A DNA stretch of 35,990 nucleotides from assembly GCA_903869075.1 (NCBI GenBank), contig CAIPXZ010000190.1, forward strand, positions 1 through 35,990, written 5' to 3'. This stretch comes from an uncultured Myxococcales bacterium. GTDB lineage: Bacteria > Myxococcota_A > UBA9042. Each line of letters starts with the position of its first letter. The first letter of the stretch is position 1. The notes beneath the pieces are model-generated. The model saw only the letters and a list, made by a program, of their open reading frames with translations. It was not told where the DNA came from and did not search any database. The translations under genes and the position numbers were made by a program. Below are positions 11,417 through 30,263 of this stretch, in pieces.

Positions 11417-11502
11417 CGCGTCAACCCCGGGCCGAGCGTTGGATCACTCGCCACTGCTTGCGGAGTCTAGCGAACCAAAATCTGCTGGCAAGTTGCGGCG
11501 AT

Positions 11503-13038: not shown

Positions 13039-13059
13039 GATTTGCCTCGCCCGCGGCCG

Positions 13060-14118
13060 CTACAGCCGGACGTCAATGTGGGCACTGCCGCGCATCTCAT
13101 CCAGCCAGGCCTTGTAGAGCTTGGTGAACTGCTCTTCCTGCAGGCGCGCGCGGACAAATTGCTCCAGCACTTCCTTGTCCTTGACCGGCACCCGCCGCCG
13201 CTCGAGGAACTGGATGATGTGAAAGCCATACGGCGTCTGGACCACCGTCGAGATTTCGCCCGGTTGCAGCGACCACAGCTTGCCGCCAAAGGTCGGATCC
13301 AGCGTCCAGCGCTTCTGCCAGCCCAGGTCGCCGTGGCCCTCGGACGTCGCCGAGTCGTCATTGCAGTCGTCCGCCACTTCGTCCCACGGCTTTTTGTGCA
13401 CCGCCACGTCGTCGTAGCAATGCCAGGCGCGGTCGCGCAGCTCGGTCACGCGCTGCGGGCTGGCGTCATCGGGCACGCCGATCAGCATGTGCCGCGAGTG
13501 CACCTCGTCCTCAAACTGCCCGCCGGCGTATTCCTGGTCGATGATGCGCTTGACCTCGTCCTCGGTCACCCGCAGCTTGCCGGCGATCTTCGCCCGCAGC
13601 ATCTGCACCCGCACCATCTCCGTGCGCACGTGCGCGCGGTACGCCGCGAGCGTCGGAAAGCCCATGTTGCGGACGATCTCCTCGAATTCGTCCAGCGTCT
13701 TGTGCATCCGCTTGCGCGTCTGGTCGATTTGCCCGTCGACCTCGCCATCGCTGACGACGAGGCCCAAGTCTTTCGCGGCCTTGGCTACCAGCGCGTTGTC
13801 GATCAGCGTGTCCAGCGTCTGCTTGCGCAGCGCCTCGGGGCTGCGCGGCTCGGCGGTCTGGATCGGGTCATTGCCGCCGCGCGTCTGGCCCATCGCCCGG
13901 CGCAGCTCGCTCTGCAAAATCGCCGTATCGCCGACGGTGGCGACGACGCCGTCCACCTCCTGATAGCCCTGCGGCAACGTCGCGCGGCGCACCGCCAGCA
14001 CCGGCTTCTGCGGCTTGGCCGGCTCTTCCTTGCCCGGCGGCGGCGGATCCGCGGCAAACGCCGCCAGCGGCACAGCCAGCAGCGCCAGCGCCGCCAGCGT
14101 AGGGGTCAGTTTGCACAT
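13060..14118 (-). CDS. SurA-like periplasmic parvulin peptidyl-prolyl isomerase
   Basis: The 352-residue protein has a Sec signal peptide (TLAALALLAVPLAAFAA, cleavage near residue 23). A SurA-type N-terminal chaperone region spans ~55-200 (VDGVVATVGDTAILQSELRRAM, LRKQTLDTLIDNALVAKAAKD). One parvulin domain spans ~203-310: HSRHMLIGVPDD, DLGWQKRWTLDPTFGGKLW, LQPGEISTVVQTPYGFHIIQFLERR. A cysteine pair lies inside the isomerase domain. SurA-like proteins chaperone outer-membrane proteins and catalyse proline cis-trans isomerisation. There is one isomerase domain where E. coli SurA has two. The start lies 3 nt after the upstream parvulin-lipoprotein stop, so the two are translationally coupled; the NACHT-like lipoprotein follows after 21 nt. 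Confidence 0.88.
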   Translation of the reverse strand: MCKLTPTLAALALLAVPLAAFAADPPPPGKEEPAKPQKPVLAVRRATLPQGYQEVDGVVATVGDTAILQSELRRAMGQTRGGNDPIQTAEPRSPEALRKQTLDTLIDNALVAKAAKDLGLVVSDGEVDGQIDQTRKRMHKTLDEFEEIVRNMGFPTLAAYRAHVRTEMVRVQMLRAKIAGKLRVTEDEVKRIIDQEYAGGQFEDEVHSRHMLIGVPDDASPQRVTELRDRAWHCYDDVAVHKKPWDEVADDCNDDSATSEGHGDLGWQKRWTLDPTFGGKLWSLQPGEISTVVQTPYGFHIIQFLERRRVPVKDKEVLEQFVRARLQEEQFTKLYKAWLDEMRGSAHIDVRL

Positions 14119-14121
14119 GGC

Positions 14122-15237
14122 TTACAGCTCAGACGGCGTCGGATCCGCCGGTTGCTTGTTGTTGGAGACGCCTGGCGGCACGGCGCCCTGGCCCGGCGCG
14201 CCCTTGCCCTTGCCCGCTGGCGGTTGCACCGGCAGCAGGCGCAGCGCGTCGTCGTTCAGGTCGATCTTCGCCGCGGCGCGCAGGTCGTCGACCAGCTTCT
14301 GGCGGCGCAGGTCGCGCTCGCGCTTGACGATGCGGGTGCGAATGGAGTCGCGGACATCGGCAAAAGCCTTGTCCACAGCTGGAATTTTCGAGGTCACCAT
14401 CAGCACATGCCAGCCCTGCGGCGACTGCACCGGCGTGCCGATGGTAAAGATTTCGCGGCCCATCGCCGCCTCAATGACCTGCGCCGGCACCCGCGCCAGC
14501 CGCTCGAGATCTGCCGGCGCCGCGCCCGACGGCGGCGTCCGCGACACAAGCCCCAGCGAGCCGAGGTACGGAATCGTCGCCTGATCCTGCGACAGCCGCC
14601 CGACGTAGTCGTTCCACGCCACCACGAGCTTGGCCGACGCGCCTTCCGACGCCGACCGCAGTTCTTTGGCGATGCGCTCTGCCGTCGCCGCGTCCGCGAC
14701 AAGGATGTGGCTGACCTCGACCTGCTCCGGCTTGTGGTACAGCCCGGGATTGGCGTCGTAATACTTCTGCAAGTCCGCGTCCGTAAAGCTCTCCGGCTTG
14801 ACAGCTTCCACCGCCGTGTCCGCCAGGAACTTGCGCACCATCGCCTGCTTGGCGGCTTCCAGCACTTCCGGATCGCTCGCCAGCCCGCGCCGCGCCGCTT
14901 CCGCCGCCAGCAGCTCGAACTGCACGAGACTCGTCAGGTATTCCTTGCGCTTTTGCGTGCTGGCAAACTGACTGCGCACCACCGCCGGCTCATGCGCCAG
15001 CCGCGCCTCGATCTCGCCCAGCGTGATCGTGTGGTCGCCAATGCGCGCCACCACGGTCGCGCGCTGCTCCGCGGTCAGCTGGGAATCGTCGAGGTTGATG
15101 TGCGCGTTCGGCACCTGTTCCACCGTCGCCTGCTGCGCTTTCTCGGTGATGCCGGGACCCGCCGGATGCGGCCGCGCGGGCTTGCCGCACGCGACGGTGG
15201 CGAGGAGGAGGGGCAAAAGGGCGAAGTTTCGGCGCAT
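14122..15237 (-). CDS. PpiC-type parvulin lipoprotein (PrsA/SurA-like foldase)
   Basis: The 371-residue protein starts at the ATG at 15237, chosen for the GGAGG just upstream and the lipoprotein signal that follows (NFALLPLLLATVAC, lipobox TVAC at about residue 17); the frame extends further upstream without coding character. A SurA_N-like region (VVARIGDHTITLGEIEARLA, then LVQFELLAAEAARRGL) is followed at ~170-310 by a parvulin domain: QVEVSHILVAD, YLGSLGLVSR, FTIGTPVQSPQGWHVLMVTSK. The tail is Pro/Gly/Lys-rich. It should act as a lipid-anchored periplasmic prolyl isomerase and chaperone. It is the first gene of a minus-strand run with the SurA-like and NACHT-like genes. Confidence 0.88.
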   Translation of the reverse strand: MRRNFALLPLLLATVACGKPARPHPAGPGITEKAQQATVEQVPNAHINLDDSQLTAEQRATVVARIGDHTITLGEIEARLAHEPAVVRSQFASTQKRKEYLTSLVQFELLAAEAARRGLASDPEVLEAAKQAMVRKFLADTAVEAVKPESFTDADLQKYYDANPGLYHKPEQVEVSHILVADAATAERIAKELRSASEGASAKLVVAWNDYVGRLSQDQATIPYLGSLGLVSRTPPSGAAPADLERLARVPAQVIEAAMGREIFTIGTPVQSPQGWHVLMVTSKIPAVDKAFADVRDSIRTRIVKRERDLRRQKLVDDLRAAAKIDLNDDALRLLPVQPPAGKGKGAPGQGAVPPGVSNNKQPADPTPSEL

Positions 15238-15325
15238 GCAAACCTCCGCCCAAGGGGACGGCGGGTGTGTTTTGGCAGGTTTGGCGCAGCGGCGCAACCT
15301 CCGATGCACCGAGCCCGAGGACATC

Positions 15326-15354
15326 TTGACACGATCCGGCGCAAGCCCCAGCCT
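15326..15354 (+). promoter_or_regulatory. candidate promoter in the divergent region before the STT3-tail-like gene
   Basis: TTGACA (15326-15331), a perfect -35 consensus, is followed after 17 bp by CAGCCT (15349-15354), which keeps only A2 and T6 of a -10. It lies 40 nt before the ATG at 15394 within the 156-bp divergent intergenic region shared with the parvulin lipoprotein gene on the other strand. The -10 is poor, so this is a weak call. Confidence 0.25.
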
Positions 15355-15386
15355 CAGCCGGCCCGGGCCACCGCCCGCTGTCCATG

Positions 15387-15454
15387 CTGACCGATGTCCA
15401 ACGTCCCAAACTTCCCGGTCAGACCTGTCGCATTTCGGAGTAGATCCGGGCGCG
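15387..15454 (+). repeat. imperfect direct repeat, copy A (overlaps gene start)
   Basis: CTGACCGATGTCC (15387-15399) is identical to 16215-16227. The following ~55 bp align with copy B with one 1-nt gap; the last 35 bp match at 27 positions (CAGACC-GT-GCAT-TCGGA-T-GATCC pattern). Copy A contains the ATG of the STT3-tail-like gene. Confidence 0.75.
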
Positions 15455-16346: not shown

Positions 16347-19300
16347 TCAGCGCCGCCCGACCATCCGCAGCCGGCCGCTGTGGCGCGGATCGACCGTCAG
16401 CTGGCGCGGCGCCTCCGGCTCCGGCATCACGTCAATCACCACGTCCGCCGGGTTCTCCGACCACCGCCGCAGCGTCCGCAGCAGCTCTTTTGTCGCCGCC
16501 ACAGGCGCTTCCTGCTCGCGCGGCGTCAGCGTCTTGGTCAGCACCATGTCCGGCGTCAGCCGATACAGCGAGCCGCGCTGGTTGATGAGCGGCAGCAGCG
16601 TCTCCGGCTGCAGCTTGCCGCGCTCGTGCAGCGTCAGCGCCACCGCCATCGGACCTTGCTCGACTTTTTGCACGCCCAGCGCGATCGCCAGCACGCGCAG
16701 CTCCAGCGTCTCGAACAGCGCCTGCCCGGGCGGCGGCAGCCGGCCGTAGCGGTCGACAACAGCGCGCATCGCCGCGTCCAGCTCCGCCTCATTGCGCACG
16801 CCCGCCAGCCGCTTGTACGCCGCCAAACGCTGCGTCGGATCCGGCACATACGTCTCCGGCAGGAACGCCGTCAGCGCGACCTTGATCTCCGGATCCACCG
16901 GCGCGCCCAGGTCCTCGCCGCGGATTTCCTGCACCGCCTCTTCCAGCAGCTTGACGTACAGCTCGTAGCCGATCTCGGCGATGTGGCCGGTCTGCTCCTC
17001 GCCCAGCAGGTTGCCGGCGCCGCGGATCTCCAGGTCATGGCTGGCAATTTGCACGCCCGAGCCCAGCTCCGAGAACCGCTCCAGCACCGCCACGCGCCGC
17101 GCGCCGTCAGTCGTCATCCGCTCGCGCTCCGGCACGGTCAGGTAGCACCACGCGCGCACGCTCGATCGCCCCACGCGTCCGCGCAGCTGGTACAACTGCG
17201 CGAGGCCAAACGTGTCGGCGCGCTCGATGAACATCGTGTTGGCGTTGGGAATGTCCAAGCCCGACTCAATAATCGTCGTTGAAATCAAGACGTTGCATTC
17301 GCGGCGCATGAATTTCAGCATCGCGTCTTCCAGCTCGCCTTCCTCCATCTGGCCGTGCGCCACCACCGGCCGCACGCTCGGCACCAGCGACTTCAGGTGC
17401 TCCGCGATCTCCGGCAGCCGCGCGATGCGGTTGCAGACGTAAAACGCCTGGCCGCCGCGGTTCAGCTCGCGCTCCAGCGCCTCCTGCAGCACGTCATCGG
17501 CGCCGCGGCAGACGATCGTGCGCACCGACTTGCGGTTCTCCGGCGGCGTGGCGATCAGCGATAAATCGCGCAGCCCCAGCGTCGCCAACTGCAGCGTCCG
17601 CGGGATCGGCGTCGCGGACAGCGTCATGCAGTCGATGTTGGTCCGCCATTTCTTGATGGCCTCCTTGTGGCCGACGCCAAAACGGTGCTCTTCGTCGATG
17701 ATCAACAGGCCCAAATCGCGGAAATTCACGTCCTTGGAAAGCAGCCGGTGCGTGCCGACGATGATGTCGATCTCGCCCTTGTTCAGCGCCTCGATCGTCT
17801 CGCGCTGCTCCGCGGCGCTCAAAAACCGCGACAGCGACGCGACCTTGATCGGCAAGCCCTGGCAGCGCTCGGCGAACGTCAGGCGATGCTGCTCCGCCAG
17901 GACCGTCGTCGGCGCCAACACCGCGACTTGCTTGCCGTCCAGCGCCACTTTCACCGCCGCGCGGATCGCGACTTCGGTCTTGCCATAGCCGACGTCGCCG
18001 CACACGAGCCGGTCCATCGGCCGCGGCAGGCTCAGGTCAATCAGCACGTCGTCGATCGCCCGCTGCTGGTCCGGCGTCTCTTCCCACGGGAACGACGCCT
18101 CCCACTCGCGGTACACTTCATCGGGCGGCGAAAACGCGTGACCCGGCCGCGCCGCGCGCTCGGCATACAGCCGCACCAGCTCCTGCGCCGCCTCCGCCAC
18201 GGCCTTTTTGGCCCGGCGCTTGGCCTTCAGCCAGCGATCGTGGCCGAGTCGATCCAGCTGCGGCGACGCGTCCTCACCGGAGACGAACTTTTGCACGCGC
18301 TCCAGGCTCGTCACCGGCACGTACAACCGCTGGTCTTCCTTGTAGATAATCAGCAGGAAGTCCTGCTCGATGCCGCCCGCCGCCATGCGCTGCAGCCCGA
18401 CGTAGCGGCCAATGCCGTGGTCGACGTGCACGATGTAGTCGCCCTCGGTCAGCTCCGCCATGTCGCGAATCAGCTGGCCGGCCGAGCGTTTTTTGCGCAG
18501 CTGCTGCGGCTTGACGGTCTTGTGGCCAAAAATCTCGTCCTCGTCGATCACGACGAGCTTGAGCGCCTCGATGTGGTAGCCTTCGCCCGAGCCGCCCAGC
18601 ACCAACAGCGCGTCCAGGTCCTTGCGCAGCCGCAGCGTCGGCATATCCGCCGGCCGCAGGGGGCCCTGGTGGAACTCGCTGCCGATGCCGTAGTGCCGCA
18701 AAATCGTCGCCAGCCGCTCGCGGCCGCCTTCGGAGTGCGCGGCAATCACCACCAATTCCTGCAACTTGCGCGCCATGCGGATGCGCTGCACAAGTGGCCG
18801 CAGGCCCTCGTCGCGGCCGCGCGCCTCGTGCAGCTCGCGCGCCACATCGCGGTTGTTGCCGACGTCCAGCTGGAACGTCGGCGCCGTACGGCCCTCCTCA
18901 AAAATCGCGAACGGCCGCACATATAGCTGCGTATGCGTCTGCAATTGCTGGCGAATCTCATCCGGAGACGCCGCCAGCTGCTCGGGCGGATAGCACAGCC
19001 GCTGCGCCGCCTGCGCCTCGGCGTACTGCAGCCGCAGCTGCTGCCACGCCGCTTCCAGCGCCTGGAAACAGGCGTCCGGCTGGTCCAGCACCACGATCGG
19101 CGAGGCGTTGCCGGTCAGCGGCGCGAGCTGCAGGATCGTCGCCTGGTCCGGCGTGATGCCGGCGCGCAGCGCTTCCAGCCCCGGCACCACGTGGCCGGCG
19201 CGCAGCTCGTCCAGGATCGCCCGCAGCTCGACGTTGCCGACGTCGTGCAAATCCGCCAAATCCGTCAGGTTCTTGCCCGCGAGCGCCAGGCTGCCCGGGT

Positions 19301-20009
19301 CGATCAGCAGCTCGCGCACCGGCGGCAGGATCACGTCCAGCAGGCTGTGACCGGTCGCCGCTTGCGTTTCCGGGTCAAAAAAGCGGATGGCGGTCACGTC
19401 GTCGCGCGTCAAGTCGATGCGCGTCGGCTCCAGATACAGCGGACTCCAGACGTCGATGCCGTCGCCGCGCAGCGTGAAAGTGCCCTGATCTTCGCAGACT
19501 GGCACCTGCTCGTAGCCGCCAGCCAGCAGTTGTTCGACAAGTTCCACGGTATCCAGGTTCGCGCCCACCGACGCCATCGCCGTCGCCCGATCCAGCTGGC
19601 CCGCCGCCAGGGTGCGGTGCAGCAGCGCGTCGGCCGTCACAACCACCGCCGCCAAGCCCAGCCCGAGGTTCAGCCGATAGCCCGCGGCGATGCGCGCCTG
19701 CACGTTCTGCCGCAGCGGCGACACGTCGTGGTACGGCGACACGTCATTGGCTTCATATGCCAGCACCGGCCCGAGACCGGGCCACAGCTCCGCCTCGAAA
19801 GCGCTCAGGCCTTCGACAATTTGCGCCATGCGCTGGGTCGTCGGCGCGACGATCAGCAGCGGCCGATCCACCCGCGCCCGCAGCACCGCCAGCAGCAGCG
19901 GCACCACGCCCGCCTCCGCCGTCGCCAGCACCTGCAGCGGCGTGCGGTGCTCGAGCGACAGCACGAGCCCCTCGAAGTCAAAGCGGCGCGGCTGGTGCAA
20001 AGTGGCCAT
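16347..20009 (-). CDS. mfd: transcription-repair coupling factor Mfd
   Basis: The protein is 1220 residues from the ATG at 20009; an in-frame ATG at 20048 would add 13. Mfd is a DNA translocase that removes RNA polymerase stalled at lesions and recruits UvrA. The UvrB-like N-terminal half is followed by the RNA-polymerase-interacting domain (DYIVHVDHGIGRYVGLQ, about residue 530) and a RecG-like SF2 motor: P-loop GDVGYGKT (Lys677), DEEH box (772-775), TRG region including RGRVGRSSVRAWCYL, and the C-terminal UvrA-masking domain with FLPETYVPDPTQRLAAYKRLA. The length is slightly above the E. coli protein (1148). All key motor motifs are present. It is transcribed alone, convergent with the STT3-tail-like gene and divergent from the VWA gene. 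Confidence 0.97.
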   Translation of the reverse strand: MATLHQPRRFDFEGLVLSLEHRTPLQVLATAEAGVVPLLLAVLRARVDRPLLIVAPTTQRMAQIVEGLSAFEAELWPGLGPVLAYEANDVSPYHDVSPLRQNVQARIAAGYRLNLGLGLAAVVVTADALLHRTLAAGQLDRATAMASVGANLDTVELVEQLLAGGYEQVPVCEDQGTFTLRGDGIDVWSPLYLEPTRIDLTRDDVTAIRFFDPETQAATGHSLLDVILPPVRELLIDPGSLALAGKNLTDLADLHDVGNVELRAILDELRAGHVVPGLEALRAGITPDQATILQLAPLTGNASPIVVLDQPDACFQALEAAWQQLRLQYAEAQAAQRLCYPPEQLAASPDEIRQQLQTHTQLYVRPFAIFEEGRTAPTFQLDVGNNRDVARELHEARGRDEGLRPLVQRIRMARKLQELVVIAAHSEGGRERLATILRHYGIGSEFHQGPLRPADMPTLRLRKDLDALLVLGGSGEGYHIEALKLVVIDEDEIFGHKTVKPQQLRKKRSAGQLIRDMAELTEGDYIVHVDHGIGRYVGLQRMAAGGIEQDFLLIIYKEDQRLYVPVTSLERVQKFVSGEDASPQLDRLGHDRWLKAKRRAKKAVAEAAQELVRLYAERAARPGHAFSPPDEVYREWEASFPWEETPDQQRAIDDVLIDLSLPRPMDRLVCGDVGYGKTEVAIRAAVKVALDGKQVAVLAPTTVLAEQHRLTFAERCQGLPIKVASLSRFLSAAEQRETIEALNKGEIDIIVGTHRLLSKDVNFRDLGLLIIDEEHRFGVGHKEAIKKWRTNIDCMTLSATPIPRTLQLATLGLRDLSLIATPPENRKSVRTIVCRGADDVLQEALERELNRGGQAFYVCNRIARLPEIAEHLKSLVPSVRPVVAHGQMEEGELEDAMLKFMRRECNVLISTTIIESGLDIPNANTMFIERADTFGLAQLYQLRGRVGRSSVRAWCYLTVPERERMTTDGARRVAVLERFSELGSGVQIASHDLEIRGAGNLLGEEQTGHIAEIGYELYVKLLEEAVQEIRGEDLGAPVDPEIKVALTAFLPETYVPDPTQRLAAYKRLAGVRNEAELDAAMRAVVDRYGRLPPPGQALFETLELRVLAIALGVQKVEQGPMAVALTLHERGKLQPETLLPLINQRGSLYRLTPDMVLTKTLTPREQEAPVAATKELLRTLRRWSENPADVVIDVMPEPEAPRQLTVDPRHSGRLRMVGRR

Positions 20010-20118
20010 AGCGGGAGCCAGAATAGGCGCTGCCTGCCGGTTGGGCAACGCCCGCGGCCGTTTCCGCTGCGATCGGCGTGGATTGCGCGGCCGGGGCGGC
20101 AGGTGCCGGTGCGGCTAC

Positions 20119-20147
20119 TTGACCGCGACGGCGCGCAACCGCACAGT
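20119..20147 (+). promoter_or_regulatory. candidate promoter of the VWA lipoprotein gene
   Basis: TTGACC (20119-20124), 17-bp spacer, CACAGT (20142-20147). The predicted transcript would begin near 20154, only about 7 nt before the ATG at 20161 but about 49 nt before the GTG at 20203, which supports the GTG as the start. The -10 is poorly matched. Confidence 0.3.
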
Positions 20148-20202
20148 GGACGGCAACGGAATGCGCGGCGCCACTGCGGCGTTGTGCCCGGTGGGAGCCG
20201 TT

Positions 20203-21819
20203 GTGAACCGATTCTGGACAAGCCAAAACCGCGCGTGGGCAGCCGTCATCGCGGTGGTCGTCAGCCTGTGCGCCTGCGAACCGACGTACCCGGCGGACGA
20301 CGCCACCGCCGGTGACGCCAGCGGCGACGCCGACACCAGCCACTTGCCGCCCAATGGCGGCACCATCTACGGCGACGACGACACCTGCGGCACAAGCTGC
20401 CCGACGCCCGCGCACGCCGACCCAACGTGCGCCGAGAGCGTGTGCGGCTACGCCTGCAGCGGCGACTTCCTGGACTGCAACGGCAAGCCCCTCGACGGCT
20501 GCGAAATCAGCATCAAGAGCGACCCGGCGCACTGCGGCAGCTGCGGCAACAACTGCGGCAACGTCGTGAACGGCACGCCGATTTGCGTCAATTTTCTCTG
20601 CCGCGCGTCCTGCGACCCGGGCTGGGGCAGCTGCCAGAACAACCCGGCGCAGTGCGAGACGCACACCGACGTCGACCCGCTGCACTGCGGCGGCTGCACG
20701 ACGCAATGCACCGGTAGCATCAACGCCGCGCCGCACTGCGAGGGCGGCCAATGCACGTTCCACTGCTCGCCTGGGTACTCGGATTGCAACAGCAATTCCG
20801 ACGACGGCTGCGAAATCAACACCGACAGCGACCCGCACCATTGCGGCAGCTGCAACCTCGACTGCAAGGGCCTCGGCTGCTCGCAGGGCACCTGCACGTG
20901 CGCGTCCAGCACGCAGACGGCCTCGCTGTCGCCGCTGGACTTGTACATCATGATGGACCAGTCCGGCTCGATGGACCTGACCACCGGCACCGGCGTGACA
21001 AAATGGGCAGCGATCTCCGCGGCCATCAAGGGTTTTGTCAATGACGCCAAGTCCGTCGGCATCGGCGTCGGCATCCAGTATTTCCCGCTGACGACCTGCG
21101 CATCGTCCGAATACGCCAAGCCGGAGGTGCCCATCGCCGACCTGCCGGCCAACGCGACGACAATCATGGCGTCAATCGCCAAACATGGCCCCAACGGCTC
21201 GACGCCGACCGCGGCGGCGCTGGACGGTGCGATCACCTATGCGCAATCCGTGGCCGCGACAAAGCCCGGTCACGTCATCGCTGTCGTCCTCGCCACGGAC
21301 GGCGTGCCGACCGGCTGTGCGCCGCTGGACACCATCCCCGCCGTCGCCAAGATCGCCGCCGCCGGCTTGACGAGCTCCGCTGCGGTGCACACCTTCGTCA
21401 TCGGCGTCGGCACCGAGACGGCCTCGCTCAACGCGATCGCCGTCGCTGGCGGCACCAAGTCGGCGCTGATCGTCGACGTCGCCGGCAACGTCGAGCAGCA
21501 ATTCGCCGCTGACTTGAAGGCCGTCCAGGGCACCGCGCTTGCATGCTCGTACGCCATCCCGGTGGCGCCCGCCGGCCAAAACGTCGACTTCAACAAGGTC
21601 AACGTGCAGATCACGCTCAGCGGCGGCAAGCCGCAGATGCTCAACTACGTCGCCACCGAGGCCGACTGCAGCGCGACGACCGGCGGCTGGCACTTCGACA
21701 ACGCCGCCGCGCCGACCAAGATCCTGCTGTGCGCCACAAGCTGCGCCGTGCCGCTCAGCGCGTCGACCGCCAAGGTCGAGATTTTGCTGGGCTGCGCGCG
21801 CACGACCGCCAATCCGTAG
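20203..21819 (+). CDS. VWA-domain lipoprotein with Cys-rich N-terminal repeats
   Basis: The 538-residue protein starts at the GTG at 20203 (GGGAG upstream, compact signal); the ATG at 20161 would add 14 residues. The signal ends in VVVSLCAC, a lipobox. An acidic linker (DDATAGDASGDADTS) is followed by three or four Cys-rich repeats of the form DG-C-E-I-x-(S/T)-D-P-x-H-C-G-S-C-x-x-x-C, up to about residue 245, a motif common in myxobacterial surface proteins. The VWA domain (~248-445) has a complete MIDAS: DQSGS (Asp252), a Thr in NGSTPTAAAL and Asp in LATDG. A final ~90 residues with several cysteines complete the protein. It is probably a metal-dependent protein-binding surface lipoprotein. 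Ligand unknown. Confidence 0.88.
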   Translation: MNRFWTSQNRAWAAVIAVVVSLCACEPTYPADDATAGDASGDADTSHLPPNGGTIYGDDDTCGTSCPTPAHADPTCAESVCGYACSGDFLDCNGKPLDGCEISIKSDPAHCGSCGNNCGNVVNGTPICVNFLCRASCDPGWGSCQNNPAQCETHTDVDPLHCGGCTTQCTGSINAAPHCEGGQCTFHCSPGYSDCNSNSDDGCEINTDSDPHHCGSCNLDCKGLGCSQGTCTCASSTQTASLSPLDLYIMMDQSGSMDLTTGTGVTKWAAISAAIKGFVNDAKSVGIGVGIQYFPLTTCASSEYAKPEVPIADLPANATTIMASIAKHGPNGSTPTAAALDGAITYAQSVAATKPGHVIAVVLATDGVPTGCAPLDTIPAVAKIAAAGLTSSAAVHTFVIGVGTETASLNAIAVAGGTKSALIVDVAGNVEQQFAADLKAVQGTALACSYAIPVAPAGQNVDFNKVNVQITLSGGKPQMLNYVATEADCSATTGGWHFDNAAAPTKILLCATSCAVPLSASTAKVEILLGCARTTANP

Positions 21820-22803: not shown

Positions 22804-22827
22804 CAGCGGGTGAGGAGAGGTCGGGCA

Positions 22828-24561
22828 ATGAAGCAGGACTCGAAAAAGCTAGTGATTTTGCTGCTCGTGGCGGCGCTGGGCGCTTGCAGCTCGCCCAAGA
22901 GCGACGTCGGCGCGGGCAATGCGGATACGGCGGTGGGCGATACCGCGCCAGCGACGGACGTGACGGCGGTGACGCCGACCGACGCAGCGGTGGAAACCAG
23001 CGATGTCGCGCCGGACGTGGCGGCGGTGGACGTGGCGCCAGACGTCGGTCCGCCGATCGACGTGACCTACATCACCAACGTTGACAACGCCGCGGATCCG
23101 ACCGGCGCAGCGGCGACCGTCGGGCAAAATGCCCAGCTTTCCGGGGACTTGACGCTGGTCTATCCGCCCGACAACGCGATGGCGCCGCGCGATTTTGCGC
23201 CGATCACCGCGCAGTGGACCTACACCGGCACGCTGCCGACGGTCTTCGTCGTGCGGTTTTCGACGGCGGAAGCGGAGGTCGACGTCATCGGCGATCCGGC
23301 GAAATTCGACGTCGGCCAAGGCTACGCTGTCACGATTCCCGACGGCATCTGGGCGGAGCTGTTCAAGCACCCGGACTACCAGGACTGGAGCGTGCGCGTG
23401 CTGGCGGCGGACATCGCCGGTGACAAGCTGGTGGGGACGATGCGCTCGTCGGCGCCGATCACCTTTCACGTGACAAATCAGAAGGTTGGCGGCGCAATTT
23501 ACTACTGGAACACGACGATGGCGACTGTGCGCGTGCTGCCGCAGGGCTCCCTGACGCCGACTTCGATCCCCGGCATGGGCGGCATGATGGCCTGCGCTGG
23601 CTGCCACAGCATCAGCCCGGACGGCTCAACGGTCGCCGTCAGCAAGTTCTTTGACCTGAGCGGCGGCGGCCTCGGCGGCTCGATGGGCATGTCGCTCGTC
23701 ACCGGCAAGAGCGGTACGCCGCCCGCGTGGCTCAGCCCCAAGGCCGCGTCCCTGCTGGCCGGCTCCTTCACGATCGCCGCGGCGTTCTCGCCGTCGTACT
23801 TCACGACGCAGTCCAAGTGGCTCGTCGTTCCGCAGGGCGGCAAGCTGCGCTCGGTCAACCTGCTCACCGGCGCGTCGTTCGCGATGGTCCAAGGCGGCGA
23901 CCTCGGCCAGCAGGCCTTCCCGACGTGGGCGCCCAACGGCGAGACCGTCGTGTACGCCTCGGCCAAGGACGTCGGCAGCGGCTTTCAGGGCGCCGTGCCC
24001 ACCGCGCTGTACACGGTGCCGTTCGGCGATGGCGCGGACATCGGCAAGGGCGGCACCGCGACGCCGATCCCCGGCGCCGACGAGCCCGGCATCTTCCACT
24101 ACTACCCCGCGTTTACGCCGGACGGCGGCTACGTCGTCTACAACCGCGCCGATCCGGCTGGTCCGGCGTGCCCCAGCACCGGCGGCGGCGGCGGTCCCGG
24201 CAGCGGCAGCGGCGCCTCGACGTACGACAACTGCAACGCCGAGGTCTGGATGATCCCGTCCGCCGGCGGCCAGGCCATCCGCCTCGACAATGCCAACCAG
24301 TCCAAGGATCCGCTGACCAAGTCCTGGCCGACTTTTGGCAACCTGGTTGGCCAATACTCCTGGCTGGCATTTTCCTCGCGCCGCAACTATGGATTCTTGC
24401 ACACCGGCGCGCCGGCGGAGCCGCAGGTCTACATCGCCGCCGTCGACCCGCTCAAGCTGCAGCAGGGCCTGGACGGTTCGTACGCCGCGCTGTGGCTGCC
24501 GGGTCAGGACATGAACTCCGGCTGCCACATTGCGCGCTGGAGCGCGCCACCGCGCGATTGA
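22828..24561 (+). CDS. lipoprotein with haem c motif and TolB-like beta-propeller
   Basis: The 577-residue protein starts at the ATG at 22828 (GAGGAGAGG seven nt upstream). The lipoprotein signal LVILLLVAALGAC is followed by an acidic/Ala/Val linker to ~residue 85. Residues ~95-220 look like a beta-sandwich (YPPDNAMAPRDFAPITAQW). At 256-260 is CAGCH, one haem c attachment motif, placed directly before SISPDGSTVAVSKF, the first blade of a WD40/PD40 (TolB-like) propeller that continues through FPTWAPNGETVVYAS, HYYPAFTPDGGYVVYN and SYAALWLPGQD. Haem and propeller combinations occur in periplasmic electron-transfer or catalytic proteins of Myxococcota and Planctomycetota. The distal haem ligand is not evident; role unknown. 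Confidence 0.8.
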   Translation: MKQDSKKLVILLLVAALGACSSPKSDVGAGNADTAVGDTAPATDVTAVTPTDAAVETSDVAPDVAAVDVAPDVGPPIDVTYITNVDNAADPTGAAATVGQNAQLSGDLTLVYPPDNAMAPRDFAPITAQWTYTGTLPTVFVVRFSTAEAEVDVIGDPAKFDVGQGYAVTIPDGIWAELFKHPDYQDWSVRVLAADIAGDKLVGTMRSSAPITFHVTNQKVGGAIYYWNTTMATVRVLPQGSLTPTSIPGMGGMMACAGCHSISPDGSTVAVSKFFDLSGGGLGGSMGMSLVTGKSGTPPAWLSPKAASLLAGSFTIAAAFSPSYFTTQSKWLVVPQGGKLRSVNLLTGASFAMVQGGDLGQQAFPTWAPNGETVVYASAKDVGSGFQGAVPTALYTVPFGDGADIGKGGTATPIPGADEPGIFHYYPAFTPDGGYVVYNRADPAGPACPSTGGGGGPGSGSGASTYDNCNAEVWMIPSAGGQAIRLDNANQSKDPLTKSWPTFGNLVGQYSWLAFSSRRNYGFLHTGAPAEPQVYIAAVDPLKLQQGLDGSYAALWLPGQDMNSGCHIARWSAPPRD

Positions 24562-24684: not shown

Positions 24685-25713
24685 ATGTTCGGCAAAAAGC
24701 TCCTTCCTTTCGCCTGTTGTGCGCTGCTCGCCGCGGCCTGCCAGAAGCCCGCTGAGGCGCCGCCACCTGCGCCTGCACCCGCGCCCGCGCCTGCACCCGC
24801 GCCCGCGCCTGCGCCCGCGCCGGAAGCTGCCAAGCCGGTGCCGCCGCCCGCGCCGGTCTCACCGAGTGCGTCGCCTGGCCTGCCGCCGCCGGCTGGCGCG
24901 GCTGTGGAAAAAGTGCTGAACGACCCGTGCCCGGCGCCGGGTGAAGATCCCGCCGCGTGCCCGGCCAAGCCGGCGACCGTGGACGACAACATCAAGGTCG
25001 CGCACGTGCTCGTCGGTTGGCAGGGTTCACTGCCAGGCAAGGCCACGACGCGCACCAAGGCCGAGGCGCTCAAGCTGGCCTCGGAGATCGCCCACGAGGC
25101 GCGCAAGCCGGGCAATGACTTCATCGGCCTTGTGTGGAAGCACTCGGACGACAACGGTCCCGGCGTGTACGACGTGACGCCGCCGATGCGCGGCCGCTAT
25201 GTGCCGCAGTTCACCGCGCTGGCGACTTCGCTGGGCGTGGGCCAGGTGGACATCGTGGAGACGCGCTTTGGCTACCACGTGATGAAGCGCGTGCCGTTCG
25301 ACTTCAAGGCGCCGGACAAGCCGCTGATCAAAGTGCTGACCGACGCCTGCCCGCTGCCGGGCGAGGATCCGACGACCTGCCCGACCGAGCAGAATCCCAA
25401 GCCGACCAAGACGACGGTCAGCCACATCCTCATCGGCTTCCAGGGCTCGCTGCCGGGCGAGAACGTGCCGCTGACCAAGGAAGAGGCCAAGAAAAAGGCC
25501 ATTGAAATCGCGCATCAGGCCCGCAAGAAGGGCGCCGACTTTGGCGTGCTGATGAAAGCCAACAGCAAGGACCCGGGTCCGGGCACCTACCCCGTGGACG
25601 CCAACGCGCAGCTGGTGCCGCCGTTCAAGCAGCTGGGCCTGTCGCTGGGCAAGGGCCAGATCGACATCGTCGAGACGAGCTTTGGCTACCACGTGATGAA
25701 GCGCGTCGAATAA
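24685..25713 (+). CDS. lipoprotein with two tandem parvulin domains
   Basis: The 342-residue protein starts at an ATG at 24685. The signal LLPFACCALLAAAC gives a lipobox (AAAC, about residue 19), followed by a Pro/Ala linker (~residues 23-70). Two parvulin (PpiC) domains follow, ~95-208 and ~235-342. Each is preceded by a matching Cys-pair segment (DPCPAPGEDPAACP and DACPLPGEDPTTCP) and each shows AHVLVGWQGSLPG or SHILIGFQGSLPG, an AxxxAxEIAHxAR helix, and an end VDIVET-FGYHVMKRV. The two copies clearly arose by internal duplication. It should act as a lipid-anchored periplasmic prolyl isomerase; the Cys pair could be a disulfide clasp. It is 15 nt before pheS, so transcription may be shared. 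Confidence 0.88.
   Translation: MFGKKLLPFACCALLAAACQKPAEAPPPAPAPAPAPAPAPAPAPAPEAAKPVPPPAPVSPSASPGLPPPAGAAVEKVLNDPCPAPGEDPAACPAKPATVDDNIKVAHVLVGWQGSLPGKATTRTKAEALKLASEIAHEARKPGNDFIGLVWKHSDDNGPGVYDVTPPMRGRYVPQFTALATSLGVGQVDIVETRFGYHVMKRVPFDFKAPDKPLIKVLTDACPLPGEDPTTCPTEQNPKPTKTTVSHILIGFQGSLPGENVPLTKEEAKKKAIEIAHQARKKGADFGVLMKANSKDPGPGTYPVDANAQLVPPFKQLGLSLGKGQIDIVETSFGYHVMKRVE
24772..24823 (+). repeat. 18-bp tandem repeat encoding the Pro/Ala linker
   Basis: CCTGCACCCGCGCCCGCG occurs at 24772-24789 and again exactly at 24790-24807, with a third, partial and slightly changed copy from 24808. It encodes alternating Pro-Ala, a stiff spacer lifting the parvulin domains from the membrane. Such a repeat is prone to in-frame length change. 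Confidence 0.85.
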
Positions 25714-25728
25714 AGGCAGCCGACCGTC

Positions 25729-26766
25729 ATGAGCGAACTGCCTGATTGGCAAATTGAAATCGACCAAGCGGCCATCCGCTGGCAAGCCGAAATCGACGAC
25801 GCCGCGGCGCTGGAGGCGCTGCGGTCGCTGGAAGTGCGCGCGCTGGGCAAGGCGGGCGAAATTCCCGGGCTGATGAAGCGGATTCCGCAGATTCCGCCGC
25901 AGGATCGCAAGGCTTTTGGCCAGGCCGTCAACGCGCTGCAGGCGCACGTCGCGGCGACGATCGAGGCGCGGCGGCAGGTGCTCGTGGAGGCGCTGATCGC
26001 CGCGGAGCTGCAGGACGCGACGTTTGACCCGGCGGCGGTGGCGCTGCCGCTCAAGCTCGGCCACCCGCATCCGCTGTCGACGGTGCAGGCGGACATCGAG
26101 GCGATCTTCACGTCGATGGGCTTTCACGTCCTGGACTATCCGGAAATCGAGAGCGAATTCGATAACTTCGAGGCGCTCAACATTCCCGGGTGGCACCCGG
26201 CGCGCGAGATGCAGGACACGTTCTGGCTCGAAAGCGGGCACTTGCTGCGCACGCACACGTCGGCCGGCCAGGTCCGCGCGATGCATCAATTTCCCGCGCC
26301 GTTCCGCGCCATTTTCCCCGGCAAGGTCTACCGCTACGAAGCGACCGACGCCAGCCACGAGCACACGTTCCATCAGGTCGAAGGGCTGATGATCGACCGC
26401 AAGGTCAGCGTCGGCCATCTGCTGGACTCGATGCGCACGCTGCTGAGCGCGATCCTGCAGCGCGAAGTGGAAATCCGCTTGCGTCCCGGATACTTCCCGT
26501 TCGTGGAGCCGGGCTTCGAGCTGGACATCCGCTGCCAGGTCTGCGCCGGTGACGGCTGTTCGGCGTGCAAGCGCCGCGGCTGGCTGGAGCTACTGCCGTG
26601 CGGGCTTGTGCATCCGAATGTGCTGCGCGCCGGCGGTCTGGACCCGGAAGAGTGGCAGGGCTGGGCGTTTGGCCTCGGACTGTCGCGGCTTGTGATGATG
26701 CGCTACGGCGTGCCGGACGTACGGCTGCTGATGGGTGGCGATCTGCGATTCTTGAGTCAATTCTAG
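25729..26766 (+). CDS. pheS: phenylalanyl-tRNA synthetase alpha subunit
   Basis: The 345-residue catalytic subunit of the (alpha-beta)2 enzyme that charges tRNA-Phe starts at an ATG 15 nt after the tandem-parvulin gene. The N-terminal ~90 residues form the helical tRNA-binding arm (LEVRALGKAGEIPGLMKRI). The class II core has HPLSTVQADIEAIFTSMGF, motif 2 region RAIFPGKVYRYEATDASHEHTFHQVEG, FVEPGFELDI, and motif 3 GWAFGLGLSRLVMMRYGVPD. A four-cysteine cluster C269-x2-C272-x4-C277-x2-C280 is present, an insertion known in many bacterial PheS proteins and possibly zinc-binding. The length is normal. pheT follows after 9 nt. Confidence 0.97.
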   Translation: MSELPDWQIEIDQAAIRWQAEIDDAAALEALRSLEVRALGKAGEIPGLMKRIPQIPPQDRKAFGQAVNALQAHVAATIEARRQVLVEALIAAELQDATFDPAAVALPLKLGHPHPLSTVQADIEAIFTSMGFHVLDYPEIESEFDNFEALNIPGWHPAREMQDTFWLESGHLLRTHTSAGQVRAMHQFPAPFRAIFPGKVYRYEATDASHEHTFHQVEGLMIDRKVSVGHLLDSMRTLLSAILQREVEIRLRPGYFPFVEPGFELDIRCQVCAGDGCSACKRRGWLELLPCGLVHPNVLRAGGLDPEEWQGWAFGLGLSRLVMMRYGVPDVRLLMGGDLRFLSQF

Positions 26767-26775
26767 AGGTTCCCC

Positions 26776-29109
26776 GTGCTCGTCTCCTGGCGATGGTTGT
26801 CGCAGTTCGTCGATACGCGCGGCGTGGATCCGCTGCACTTTGCCGGGAAATTCACGACGACTGTCGCGGAGATCGACGACGTCGTGCAGTGGGGGTTTGG
26901 CCTGCGCGAGGTGCGGGTGGCCGATGTGATCGCCGTGGCGCCACACCCGAACGCCGACAAACTCCGCTTGGCGACTGTGGATTTGGGCGAGCGGACCGTG
27001 CAGGTCGTCTGCGGCGCGCCCGATTTGGCCGTTGGCATGCGCGTGCCGTTCGTACCGCCGGGCGTGACGCTGCCGTCGGGCATTACGGTGCGCGATGGTG
27101 AAGTGCGCGGCGTGGCAAGCCCGGGCATGTTGGCGTCGGAAAAGGACCTTGGGCTGTCCGACGAGAACGCCGGCTTGCTGAGCTTGGACGGCTGTGACGC
27201 GCCGGCAGGCACGCCGCTTCATCTGGCGATCGAGCTGGAAGATGTGCTGTACGACGTCGACAACAAGGCCATCACGCACCGTCCGGACCTCTGGGGCCTG
27301 TACGGCGTGGCGCGCGAAGTCGCGGCGATGCTGGACAAGCCGCTGAAACCGTTTGATTTGTCGCTGGATTTCGCGTCGCCGGCACCGCTGACCATCGCCG
27401 TGGAAGCGCCCGAGGCGTGCCCGCGCTACACCTGCGCGCGCGTGGCGGGTGTGGCGGTGCAGCCGGCGCCGGTGAACGCGCGGCTGCTGCTGCGGCGGCT
27501 GGGCACGCGACCGATCTCCAACCTCGTGGACGCGACGAACCTGGTGATGCTGGAGACTGGCAACCCGCTGCACGCCTTTGACGCGCGCTTTCTGCGCGGC
27601 AACGCCATCACCGTGCGCCGCGCGCTGCCGCACGAGACGCTGACGACGCTCGATGGCCAGCTGCGGCACCTGCAGGCGCACGACTGCGTGATCTGCGACG
27701 CCGTGGGACCGGTGGCGCTGGCCGGCATCATGGGCGGCGCGGACTCGGAAATTCGCCCGGACACGACGGAAGTGGTCCTGGAGGCTGCGAATTTCGACGC
27801 GCCGACGATTCGCCGTACCGCGATGCGGCTCGGCATGCGCTCAGAGAGCTCGGCGCGGTTTGAGAAGGCGCTGGACCCGGCGCTGGCAGCAGTGGCGGCG
27901 CGGCGGTTCCTGAAGCTGTGCCTGGCGTGGAGCCCGGATGCGCAAATCGTCAGTCATTTGGCGGACGTCGGCCCGTTCAGCGCGGAGGCCAAGCCGCTGA
28001 CGGTGCTGCGCACGACCGGCAGCTACCTGCGCGAGCGCCTGGGCGTGACCGCGGCGGAGCTGCCGGACGCCTGGCTGGACGCCTGCCTGACGCGCCTTGA
28101 ATTCCAGGTCGCCCGCGATGGCGACGCGCTGGCGGTGACGATCCCGAGCTTTCGCGCCACCAAAGACGTCAAAATCGCTGAAGATTTGATCGAGGAGCTG
28201 GGCCGCCACTACGGCTACGACAACGTCCGCAGCGAGGCGCCCAGAGTCGCCGCGCGGCCGCCGTACACGCCGCCGCTCAAGCTGCTGGAGCGCCAGGTGC
28301 GGACGACGCTTGTCCACGCCGGGCTGACCGAACAGGTGCTCTACGGCTTTGACGACGAGGACACCCGCAAGCGGCTGGGGCTCGCCGAGCCGGCGCCGCT
28401 GACGCGCGTGGCGGTGCGCAACCCGATCGCGTCGGCGCATACGCACATGCGCCGCAACGTGCTGCCGAACTTGCTGGCGGTGGCGGAAAAGGGCCTCGTG
28501 CAGGGCGACGACGGCCAGCCGGCGCGCAAGGGCTTGAATATTGGCGTGTTTGAGATTGGCCGCGTGTTCGTGCCGGAAAAGAGCAACGACCGCGGGCTGC
28601 CGCCGGTGCTGGTGAACGGCACCGCCGACGACCTCGCCGCGTACACCGCTGGCATGGAAGGCGAGATGCTGCGTGGCGTGCTGGACGCCCGCGCTGGCAG
28701 CACGCCGCTGCCGCTGCAGCCGATTCGCCTTGGCATTGTCATCGCCGAGCGCCTCGGCGGCGGCGCGGAAGGTTCCAAGCTCGTGTTTCCGGCGCCGGAA
28801 GTGACGCACCGCCTGCTGCAGCAGCTGATCGCCACGCTGCACCATCTGCTGAAGTGGCTGGGCAAGGAGCCGCTGACGCTGCAGGCGCGCGGTCCGGCGG
28901 CGAGCCTCGGCGCGCCCGATGCGACGCCGTCGTGGCGCAGCGATCTGGGCTTTGACCTTGTGGCGACAACCGGTGAAACCATTGGCTTTGTCGCGGCGCT
29001 ACACCCGCGGGTGCGCATCGCGCTGGACCAGCCGGCGCAAGCCGTCGTCGCGGAGCTGGACCTGACGGCGCTGGAGCGCGTGCCGGCGTTCAAGCGGGTG
29101 AATCCATGA
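26776..29109 (+). CDS. pheT: phenylalanyl-tRNA synthetase beta subunit lacking the FDX-ACB domain
   Basis: The 777-residue protein starts at a GTG (MLVSWRWLSQFVDT), nine nt after pheS. Domains in order: N-terminal B1, EMAP-like OB fold (~42-135, VIAVAPHPNADKLRLATVDLG), B3/B4 editing domain (~205-385, NLVDATNLVMLETGNPLHAFDA, GIMGGADSEI), B5 (~400-485, IPSFRATKDVKIAEDLIEELGRHYGYD), and the catalytic-like core to the end. The chain stops at LTALERVPAFKRVNP, the point where the anticodon-binding FDX-ACB domain (about 95 residues) normally begins; no such domain is encoded after it. The core appears longer than in E. coli, so total length is near normal. The last codon and stop overlap the next start as ATGA. 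Identity is certain; the missing domain is my alignment by eye. Confidence 0.95.
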   Translation: MLVSWRWLSQFVDTRGVDPLHFAGKFTTTVAEIDDVVQWGFGLREVRVADVIAVAPHPNADKLRLATVDLGERTVQVVCGAPDLAVGMRVPFVPPGVTLPSGITVRDGEVRGVASPGMLASEKDLGLSDENAGLLSLDGCDAPAGTPLHLAIELEDVLYDVDNKAITHRPDLWGLYGVAREVAAMLDKPLKPFDLSLDFASPAPLTIAVEAPEACPRYTCARVAGVAVQPAPVNARLLLRRLGTRPISNLVDATNLVMLETGNPLHAFDARFLRGNAITVRRALPHETLTTLDGQLRHLQAHDCVICDAVGPVALAGIMGGADSEIRPDTTEVVLEAANFDAPTIRRTAMRLGMRSESSARFEKALDPALAAVAARRFLKLCLAWSPDAQIVSHLADVGPFSAEAKPLTVLRTTGSYLRERLGVTAAELPDAWLDACLTRLEFQVARDGDALAVTIPSFRATKDVKIAEDLIEELGRHYGYDNVRSEAPRVAARPPYTPPLKLLERQVRTTLVHAGLTEQVLYGFDDEDTRKRLGLAEPAPLTRVAVRNPIASAHTHMRRNVLPNLLAVAEKGLVQGDDGQPARKGLNIGVFEIGRVFVPEKSNDRGLPPVLVNGTADDLAAYTAGMEGEMLRGVLDARAGSTPLPLQPIRLGIVIAERLGGGAEGSKLVFPAPEVTHRLLQQLIATLHHLLKWLGKEPLTLQARGPAASLGAPDATPSWRSDLGFDLVATTGETIGFVAALHPRVRIALDQPAQAVVAELDLTALERVPAFKRVNP

Positions 29110-30263
29110 GCGCGCCGACCCGCCGCGTCCTGTACCTCTCGGCGCCGGTCGAGCCGCCGTGGACGCGTTCAGACAAGAACCTCGTGCGCGGCGTGGCGGC
29201 GAACCTGCGGCGCTACCGCGGCTGCGTGCTGACCCACGAAGGCGTCACGCTGGCGGAGCCTAACCTCGACACGGAGCCGGCGTGGGGGCCACGCACGGCG
29301 GTCGAGACGCCGCTGGCCAAGCGCATCGGCCTATTTGGCCAGCTGATCGCCCAGCGCGAGACGGCGCTCGTGCACCTGTTCTGGCCGGCGGATTTGCTCG
29401 TCGCCAACATCGTGCGAACGGCGGCGCGGCTGCGCGGGCTGCCGGTTGTCCACACGCTTGTGCGGGCGCCGCGGACGACCGTCGGCATCAAGCAGGCGCT
29501 GGCTGGCGCGCCGGTTGTCTGCCTGACGCAGGAGACGCAGCACCGCCTGATCGCCGAGGGCGTGCAAAACACGCTGTGGGTGCCGCCGGGCATCGCGCTG
29601 CAGGCGCCGATCGCCGCGGGCGACAAGGCCGGAATCCGCCGCAAGTACCGGATACCGTTGGACGAACCGGTTGTCATCTACGCCGGCGACTACCGCCACT
29701 CCAACGCCGCGCGGACTTTTGCCGCCGCCATGCCGCGCATCCTGCGGCAGACCGACTGCCACTTCATCCTCGCCTGCCGCATCCGCAACGAAGCAGACCG
29801 CGAGGAAGAAGCGCGCATCAAGGGCGCCATCACCGCCGACGGCATCGCCCACCACGTCACTTTTCTCAATGAAGTACCGAGCTTGCGCGAGCTGTTCGCC
29901 ATCGCCGCGGTCCAGGTCTTCCCCGCCGACAGCCACCACGAAAAGATGGACCTGCCGATGGTGCTGCTGGAAGGCATGGCGGAGGGCGTGGCGACCGTCG
30001 TCGCGCAAAAGCCACCGCTGACCGAGCTTGTGCAAGCCGGCGTGGTGCTGGGCGTGCCGCCGATGGAGCCGGTGTCGCTGGCGGTGGCGGTCGGCGAGCT
30101 GCTGCTGCGCGAGGAGCGGCGCCAACAGCTGGCAGAAGCCGGTCAGCGCCATGTGCGGACGCGGCACGACATCCAGCTTGTCGCGGCGCAATACGAAGAG
30201 CTGTATGACGAAGTGCTGGCCATCGCCAAGCGGCCGCGCTCCGGCGCGTGGGGGATCGGGTGA
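29106..30263 (+). CDS. GT4-type glycosyltransferase (GT-B fold), coupled to pheT
   Basis: The 385-residue protein starts in the ATGA overlap with pheT. The N-terminal half is a Rossmann-like acceptor domain (VLYLSAPVEPPWTRSDKNLVRGV, typical of glycosyltransferases that bind lipid- or glycan-linked acceptors). The C-terminal half is a GT1/GT4 donor domain: VVIYAGDYRHSNAA, HFILACRI, HHVTFLNEVPSLRELFAIAAVQVFPADS and the E-x7-E motif in EKMDLPMVLLEGMAEG. It should transfer a sugar from a nucleotide sugar at the cytosolic face, in polysaccharide or glycolipid synthesis. The C-terminal overlap with the hydrolase gene (GTGA, 30260-30263) indicates coupling. Exact sugar and acceptor unknown. Confidence 0.85.
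   Translation: MSAPTRRVLYLSAPVEPPWTRSDKNLVRGVAANLRRYRGCVLTHEGVTLAEPNLDTEPAWGPRTAVETPLAKRIGLFGQLIAQRETALVHLFWPADLLVANIVRTAARLRGLPVVHTLVRAPRTTVGIKQALAGAPVVCLTQETQHRLIAEGVQNTLWVPPGIALQAPIAAGDKAGIRRKYRIPLDEPVVIYAGDYRHSNAARTFAAAMPRILRQTDCHFILACRIRNEADREEEARIKGAITADGIAHHVTFLNEVPSLRELFAIAAVQVFPADSHHEKMDLPMVLLEGMAEGVATVVAQKPPLTELVQAGVVLGVPPMEPVSLAVAVGELLLREERRQQLAEAGQRHVRTRHDIQLVAAQYEELYDEVLAIAKRPRSGAWGIG

Follow-up and report, generated by a model that had tools for sequence, protein, structure and literature searches.

Can a bacterial phenylalanyl-tRNA synthetase (PheRS) do without the anticodon-binding domain (FDX-ACB, or B8) of its beta subunit? The question is raised by pheT in a stretch of 35,990 nucleotides from an uncultured Myxococcales bacterium (contig CAIPXZ010000190.1 of assembly GCA_903869075.1), which we call the window. 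The gene, an open reading frame (ORF) at 26776..29109 of the + strand that matches TIGR00472 and the Pfam domains of PheT, starts with GTG, stops with TGA at 29107-29109 and encodes a PheRS beta subunit of 777 residues without FDX-ACB, the C-terminus being ...ELDLTALERVPAFKRVNP. A preliminary description of this DNA had claimed that the chain ends before FDX-ACB. We confirmed this observation, and the evidence below supports the view that the PheT of the whole genus is a bacterial-type, lineage-specific variant of PheRS beta without B8.

Absence of FDX-ACB from the PheT of one genus

Up to the missing domain, the window PheT is bacterial in type. Its TIGR00472 score of 450.9 bits exceeds the cut-off of 402.65, with the best stretch covering profile positions 1-583 of 798, and four domains follow one another in bacterial order, all above their Pfam cut-offs and on the + strand: the B2 tRNA_bind domain (residues 46-145, 26911..27210, PF01588, E = 6.1e-14), the B3/B4 editing domain (B3_4, residues 214-382, 27415..27921, PF03483, E = 1.5e-53), the B5 domain (residues 418-481, 28027..28218, PF03484, E = 4.3e-13) and the catalytic-like module (CLM) B6-B7 (residues 487-763, 28234..29064, PF17759, E = 2.8e-19). 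An AlphaFold2 (AF2) model of the protein (predicted local distance difference test, pLDDT, 86.8; predicted template modelling score, pTM, 0.62) can be superposed on Thermus thermophilus PheT as far as residue 682 of its 785 (Z 43.5, root-mean-square deviation, rmsd, 8.2, 656 residues aligned) and on Escherichia coli PheT as far as residue 698 of its 795 (Z 42.0, rmsd 7.0, 681 aligned). Since the rmsd is high over these multi-domain chains, the placement of domains in the model is not to be trusted; as modelled, the window PheT covers the solved fold up to the B7/B8 border, that is, all but B8.

The Pfam model of FDX-ACB (PF03147) has no match in the window PheT at E ≤ 1, residues 650-777 included, none across the whole draft genome of the window at E ≤ 10, and none in any of the five genomes of the genus. 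These five, the window's own (G000) counted, are all drafts with estimated completeness of 89-95%, four of them at 94-95%; G000 is a metagenome-assembled genome (MAG), 88.9% complete in 806 contigs. The four others are G003, G001, G002 and G004, whose loci are L035-L038 in that order (loci L035-L053 belong to the genomes with G handles and form no second sample).

A Pfam miss alone is insufficient evidence, because the nearest relative, L041 (genome G007), is missed by PF03147 at E ≤ 1, yet its FDX-ACB is found by a family-specific profile. Just 6 of the 17 family genomes outside the genus match PF03147 at E ≤ 1e-3 (E from 8e-4 to 9e-8), and the Pfam model is thus nearly blind in the window's family. 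True absence is settled instead by alignment and gene order, since the genus has no counterpart of the DNA from which relatives make the domain. In an alignment of 25 PheT sequences, the five genus members stop at one column, at the B7/B8 border, while the other 20 run on for 99-121 residues; set against the 15 complete PheT sequences from the rest of the family, the genus proteins are shorter by 112-155 residues.

The family-specific profile, A3, consists of C-termini from this alignment, taken from 15 family genomes and from 5 class members with ordinary domains. The latter assist its matches to loci outside the family and to the solved FDX-ACB domains of Mycobacterium tuberculosis (E = 9.6e-19) and T. 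thermophilus (E = 1.3e-15). A3 finds FDX-ACB in the PheT of 16 of the 17 other family genomes (E ≤ 1.4e-26), 15 of which went into building it, so that G013 is the independent one; in the 17th, G015, pheT runs off the contig end. In the five genus genomes, the best A3 hit had E = 0.097 and lay elsewhere than in PheT, which is no real match (150 of 182, 164 and 172 candidates were scored for G000, G002 and G004, respectively). All four other genus genomes encode a 777-residue PheT without the domain. Outside the genus, the best 80 of 340 loci from the GTDB collection gave 76 loci with 71 complete PheT ORFs, all 71 with FDX-ACB; the 71 include 15 family members already in the profile and alignment, 5 further loci run off their contigs, and this set, our sole view of other phyla, came from a query made from the alignment of the window's family. 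Altogether, the claim of a lineage-specific form is supported.

The shortened protein appears to be all that the genus has. Each of the five genomes contains one match to the PheS core (PF01409, E ≤ 0.01) and one to B5, which marks PheT (E ≤ 0.01); the PheRS without B8 is therefore the only one seen in the genus, and neither search found a second PheRS in these drafts. Among the five species, the ratio of nonsynonymous to synonymous substitution rates (dN/dS) amounts to 0.12-0.16 in pheT and to 0.08-0.14 in pheS. The last 78 codons of pheT are less constrained (ratio of nonsynonymous to synonymous polymorphism, pN/pS, 0.29 versus 0.18 for residues 1-486), and the gene is under purifying selection. 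Its single copy and this selection suggest that the protein would act in an (alpha-beta)2 tetramer that phenylalanylates tRNA-Phe.

One might still suppose that a free-standing FDX-ACB protein or a second, full PheRS hides in unassembled parts of these genomes, given that G000 is an 88.9% complete draft in 806 contigs and that three genomes held more A3 candidates than the 150 scored. We regard this as very improbable: neither PF03147 nor A3 revealed a free-standing FDX-ACB gene, for which the preliminary description had proposed to look, in any of the five drafts, four of which are 94-95% complete, and each genome has one PF01409 and one B5 match together with a single pheT under purifying selection.

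Origin of the loss

The gene order ppiC-pheS-pheT-glycosyltransferase is common to the genus and its relatives, as far as the contigs extend. Between the end of the CLM and the glycosyltransferase gene, relatives carry the codons of FDX-ACB (about 100-120), and in the genus these codons are gone; the putative deletion junction in the window, at 29089..29109 (+), consists of the last residues of PheT and an ATGA stop/start overlap. The family 4 glycosyltransferase gene, which occupies the same place in relatives, lies at 29106..30263 on the + strand (PF00534, E = 8.5e-18), and its ATG at 29106-29108 forms this four-base overlap with the pheT stop. In alignments with 15 relatives, the genus glycosyltransferase matches from its first residue in 8 cases and from residue 6-7 in the other 7.

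The ATGA overlap is found in the window and in all four other genus genomes. A four-base overlap also occurs in 7 of the 15 other family loci, as ATGA in L041, L044, L045, L046 and L052 and as GTGA in L042 and L053 (in L041 and L053 the glycosyltransferase start was placed by reading the sequence, and in L051 an overlap is possible if the N-terminus is longer). The kept overlap fits an in-frame deletion that spared the gene end, and such a deletion would be the simplest account. The alignment, the synteny and the tree establish the loss, whereas the deletion as an event is what we infer from them.

In a tree of 30 chosen rows, with the last 110 residues cut off the non-genus proteins, the genus is monophyletic (100/100) and nested in the family, within a 15-row group supported at 99/98. 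The position of L041 as its nearest relative has a support of 90/87, which is under the threshold for a sure branch. Since the genus forms one clade inside the family, one loss suffices. As a separate observation, L043 (CAMDBH010000048.1), titled as a Klebsiella pneumoniae MAG, groups with this Myxococcota family by both PheT tree and synteny, and its title looks wrong.

Considering that the genus chain falls 112-155 residues below the 15 complete PheT of the family, an assembly error, a frameshift or a decaying pseudogene has to be weighed. We rejected this explanation as hardly conceivable, short of an error common to all five assemblies. The same end occurs in five of five genomes, no FDX-ACB remnant is left in the DNA before the glycosyltransferase gene, and the dN/dS of pheT is 0.12-0.16. 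The preliminary description had already argued against a simple frameshift from the next gene, which it saw starting inside the stop codon and encoding a glycosyltransferase; close relatives with a normal C-terminus, which would have pointed to an assembly error, are not what we found, as four other species of the genus share the short end.

Proposed recognition of tRNA-Phe without B8

How, then, would the enzyme recognize its tRNA? In T. thermophilus, G34 of tRNA-Phe is bound by Asp729, Ser742 and Arg780 of B8 and stacked on Tyr731, and the phenylalanine identity elements conserved in five organisms studied are G34, A35, A36 and A73, according to the available text of PMC9976931. By alignment, an aromatic residue at the equivalent of Tyr731 is present in 8 of the 15 family domains versus 5 of 5 class domains, and the equivalent of Ser742 is present in 3 of 15 versus 5 of 5; the equivalent of Asp729 is found in none of the 20 sequences and is hence uninformative. 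A Leu-Arg motif near the PheT C-terminus, of which we take Arg780 to be part, occurs within the last 16 residues of three of the five class sequences and of none of the 15 family sequences. These comparisons indicate that the G34 pocket is partly decayed in the family and was so before the genus lost B8, and that B8 was probably of little use there prior to the loss.

One could go further and propose that the PheRS of the whole family has drifted to little dependence on the anticodon, with B8 as a near-neutral appendage. This would be compatible with the explanation that we favor below. The eroded G34-contact residues of the 15 family domains and their lack of a Leu-Arg motif in the last 16 residues speak for it, as does the weakness of PF03147, which at E ≤ 1e-3 matches 6 of 17 family genomes (8e-4 to 9e-8) and is weak also in most members of f35, f51, f52 and f54 of the phylum. 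However, FDX-ACB is kept in 16 of the 17 other family genomes, and one of these domains models as a good B8: the C-terminal domain of the first row of A3, a family member, has a pLDDT of 88.8 (AF2) and aligns with E. coli B8 at Z 12.7 (rmsd 3.7 over 95 residues), where the best unrelated rows reach Z 9.1. Something maintains the domain, and we consider such a family-wide drift somewhat doubtful.

The loss in the genus coincides with changes elsewhere in PheT. Eight alignment columns that are conserved in at least 18 of the 20 other sequences are changed in all five genus members (residues 25, 131, 160, 356, 456, 722, 723 and 725), and three of the eight cluster in a six-residue W-x-H-P-x-R motif of the CLM. 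Specifically, the alignment columns show a genus-specific W-R-S-D-L-G in its place (residues 720-725, 28933..28950, + strand): His722, present in 20 of 20 others, is Ser in five of five; Pro723 is present in 18 of 20 others; and Arg725, present in 19 of 20, is Gly in all five. The same test on a control clade of five family members gave zero such changes, on a stem of 0.13 versus 0.51 for the genus; since fewer changes are expected on a shorter stem, this control has little force as regards how many changes there are and more as regards their clustering. The motif may have lain on the surface that met B8.

The preliminary description had suggested that extra length in the part from B5 to the chain end may compensate for the missing domain. 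This was not supported as stated. The CLM insertions (residues ~574-582 and 605-645 by PheT alignment, within 28234..29064, + strand) are present in the 15 aligned family members that still have FDX-ACB; they are common to relatives with B8 and therefore predate the loss, and the case for a longer CLM as compensation is weakened. A modified version would be that the anticodon is still read by another part of the enzyme, the insertions or a non-FDX-ACB helper having taken over before B8 was lost. In its favor, the insertions are family-wide and older than the loss, the B8 pocket decays in the same family, and the GAA anticodon of the genus tRNA-Phe is unchanged. Against this, the insertions carry no sequence evidence of RNA binding and, judged from the domain order, would lie away from the position of B8, and no helper protein was identified in a search that covered FDX-ACB only. 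We therefore regard continued anticodon reading by other parts as unlikely.

On balance, we consider it rather probable that B8 was lost by an in-frame deletion on the genus branch and that the remaining PheRS is in use, charging tRNA-Phe without the anticodon contact of B8. The proposed course would begin at the family stage with the partial decay of the G34-binding pocket. On the genus branch, an in-frame deletion would then have taken out the FDX-ACB segment of pheT, disturbing neither the gene order nor the other parts of the beta subunit. Contacts with the tRNA are made by the B1/B5 region and by the coiled coil of PheS. In the enzyme so proposed, an (alpha-beta)2 tetramer charging tRNA-Phe without B8, recognition might proceed via the acceptor end (A73, G1-C72) and via the contacts of the coiled coil and B1/B5 with the tRNA body, and the B3/B4 editing site would limit charging errors.

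The tRNA complement is consistent with such a scheme. Of the 27 loci compared for tRNA-Phe, 26 gave one (L218, of G027, gave none), and each genus genome has one tRNA-Phe match (E ≤ 1e-9). In one genome, G003, the combination G44+U45+A73 occurs in tRNA-Phe alone among 43 tRNAs, so that anticodon-free recognition is possible in principle, and this combination could single out tRNA-Phe. Position 59 was considered as a co-evolved correlate of the loss, since all five genus tRNAs (L136, L128, L131, L211, L212) have A there, against U in 11 of the 14 genomes from elsewhere in the family; it was dropped because A is also found in G008, which has FDX-ACB. The altered tRNA-Phe recognition that the preliminary description read into the missing domain is plausible.

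Several points weigh against charging without the anticodon. The genus tRNA-Phe has kept its GAA anticodon along with U20, G44, U45, U60 and A73 in five of five genomes; decoding alone demands GAA, and anticodon conservation does not show, or decide, what the synthetase reads. FDX-ACB is retained, with a well-folded model, in nearly the whole rest of the family and seems useful there. In Mycoplasma pneumoniae, pheT is essential along its length except for the B1/B3 linker, according to the available text of PMC12494982, which argues that B8 matters elsewhere. In addition, the five genus genomes are all draft assemblies of 89-95% estimated completeness, and charging without anticodon reading is something that we infer from sequence. 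The stronger version of our proposal, a natural bacterial tetrameric PheRS that does not read the anticodon at all, with decay of the G34 pocket followed by clean excision of the domain and a linked change of W-x-H-P-x-R, is accordingly more tentative, and we would place it slightly short of an even chance.

Neighboring genes, phylum survey and known systems

By ORFs and Pfam matches, the gene order on the window is ppiC, pheS, pheT, the family 4 glycosyltransferase, an alpha/beta hydrolase and a second glycosyltransferase. The pheS gene (25729..26766, + strand) encodes a PheRS alpha subunit of 345 residues with an N-terminal (coiled-coil) domain and a catalytic core (PF02912, PF01409), and it is of bacterial type (TIGR00468, 264.1 bits versus a cut-off of 237.45). 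A Cys-rich CxxCxxxxCxxC segment, CQVCAGDGCSAC, at residues 269-280 of this PheS (26533-26568), is possibly a metal site. The adjoining ppiC (24685-25713) encodes two peptidyl-prolyl isomerase stretches after an Ala-Pro-rich N-terminus, and the ppiC of the relatives L042, L046 and L052 seemingly has more repeats. Upstream of ppiC, the ORF at 22810-24561 encodes a lipoprotein-like sequence with CAGCH, a CxxCH motif of the haem c-like kind. Among ten long ORFs scanned, seven gave nothing in Pfam at E ≤ 1e-4 (3659-7901, 10211-15390 and 17667-20315), and not all of them are necessarily genes.

To place the loss in the phylum, we surveyed 372 genomes, with a requested completeness of at least 90% and the window's own genome included. 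PF03147 matched at E ≤ 0.01 in 338 of them. In the window's class, it matched 22 of 35 genomes, the same genomes as in the PF03147 scan described above. The 34 negatives of the phylum (20 given directly, 14 deduced from gaps in numbering) comprise all five genomes of the genus, five from elsewhere in the family in which A3 finds the domain, and 24 others, of which 18 have a B5 match and six do not. Fourteen of the 18 are PheT of the archaeal type, TIGR00471 (L151, L152, L154-L158, L161-L166, L168), and their sequences suggest that bacterial PheRS has likely been replaced by the archaeal type repeatedly in the phylum. Two more, L153 (G308) and L167 (G323), are bacterial-type PheT whose C-termini are weakly FDX-ACB-like (E = 0.0014 and 0.00059) and are missed by Pfam; in L159 and L160, PheT runs off the contig. 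No other clean loss of B8 among bacterial-type PheT was found in this sample.

Two further observations come from this survey. In L153, PheT also lacks a tRNA_bind match at E ≤ 1. In the genome that carries the archaeal-type L168, a 362-residue frame (L169:595-1680, G254) contains only a bacterial-type B3/4 and most of B5, and it may be either what remains of the displaced gene or an editing protein that stands alone.

The genus genome, at about 6 Mb, is not strongly reduced, yet B8 was dropped from the only PheRS seen. As a natural experiment, the genus may thus show to what extent a synthetase can depend on the body and acceptor end of its tRNA together with editing; matched family enzymes with and without B8 allow direct comparison, and tRNA specificity might be engineered on the shortened enzyme as a more compact tetrameric scaffold. 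Among the titles and abstract openings listed for open-access articles in PMC, none describes a bacterial PheT that lacks B8; subscription journals and preprints lay outside this scope, and novelty is not proven.

Compared with bacterial PheT (TIGR00472; E. coli, T. thermophilus, M. tuberculosis), the window PheT has the same order of tRNA_bind, B3/B4, B5 and CLM, an adjacent pheS and the same fold to the B7/B8 border, and differs in the missing B8, the changed W-x-H-P-x-R and the insertions that its family carries in the CLM. With the PheT of other genera of the family (L039-L053) it shares 50-63% identity, the CLM insertions and the gene order; unlike the window PheT, these keep a divergent FDX-ACB, the one modelled having a good B8 fold. 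The human mitochondrial monomeric PheRS likewise descends from a bacterial line and has lost domains, as far as the available text of PMC3275996 goes, but it consists of the catalytic module plus B8, whereas the window enzyme has lost B8 alone. In the archaeal/eukaryotic PheRS beta (TIGR00471), B8 is absent as well, according to what that text says of the family. Nevertheless, the window PheT scores 48.9 bits against the TIGR00471 cut-off of 282.65 and has a bacterial tRNA_bind domain, and its partner PheS begins with the N-terminal domain of the bacterial type and is not extended at that end. By analogy, the window PheT may work without B8 as the archaeal/eukaryotic enzyme does, while not being a member of that family.

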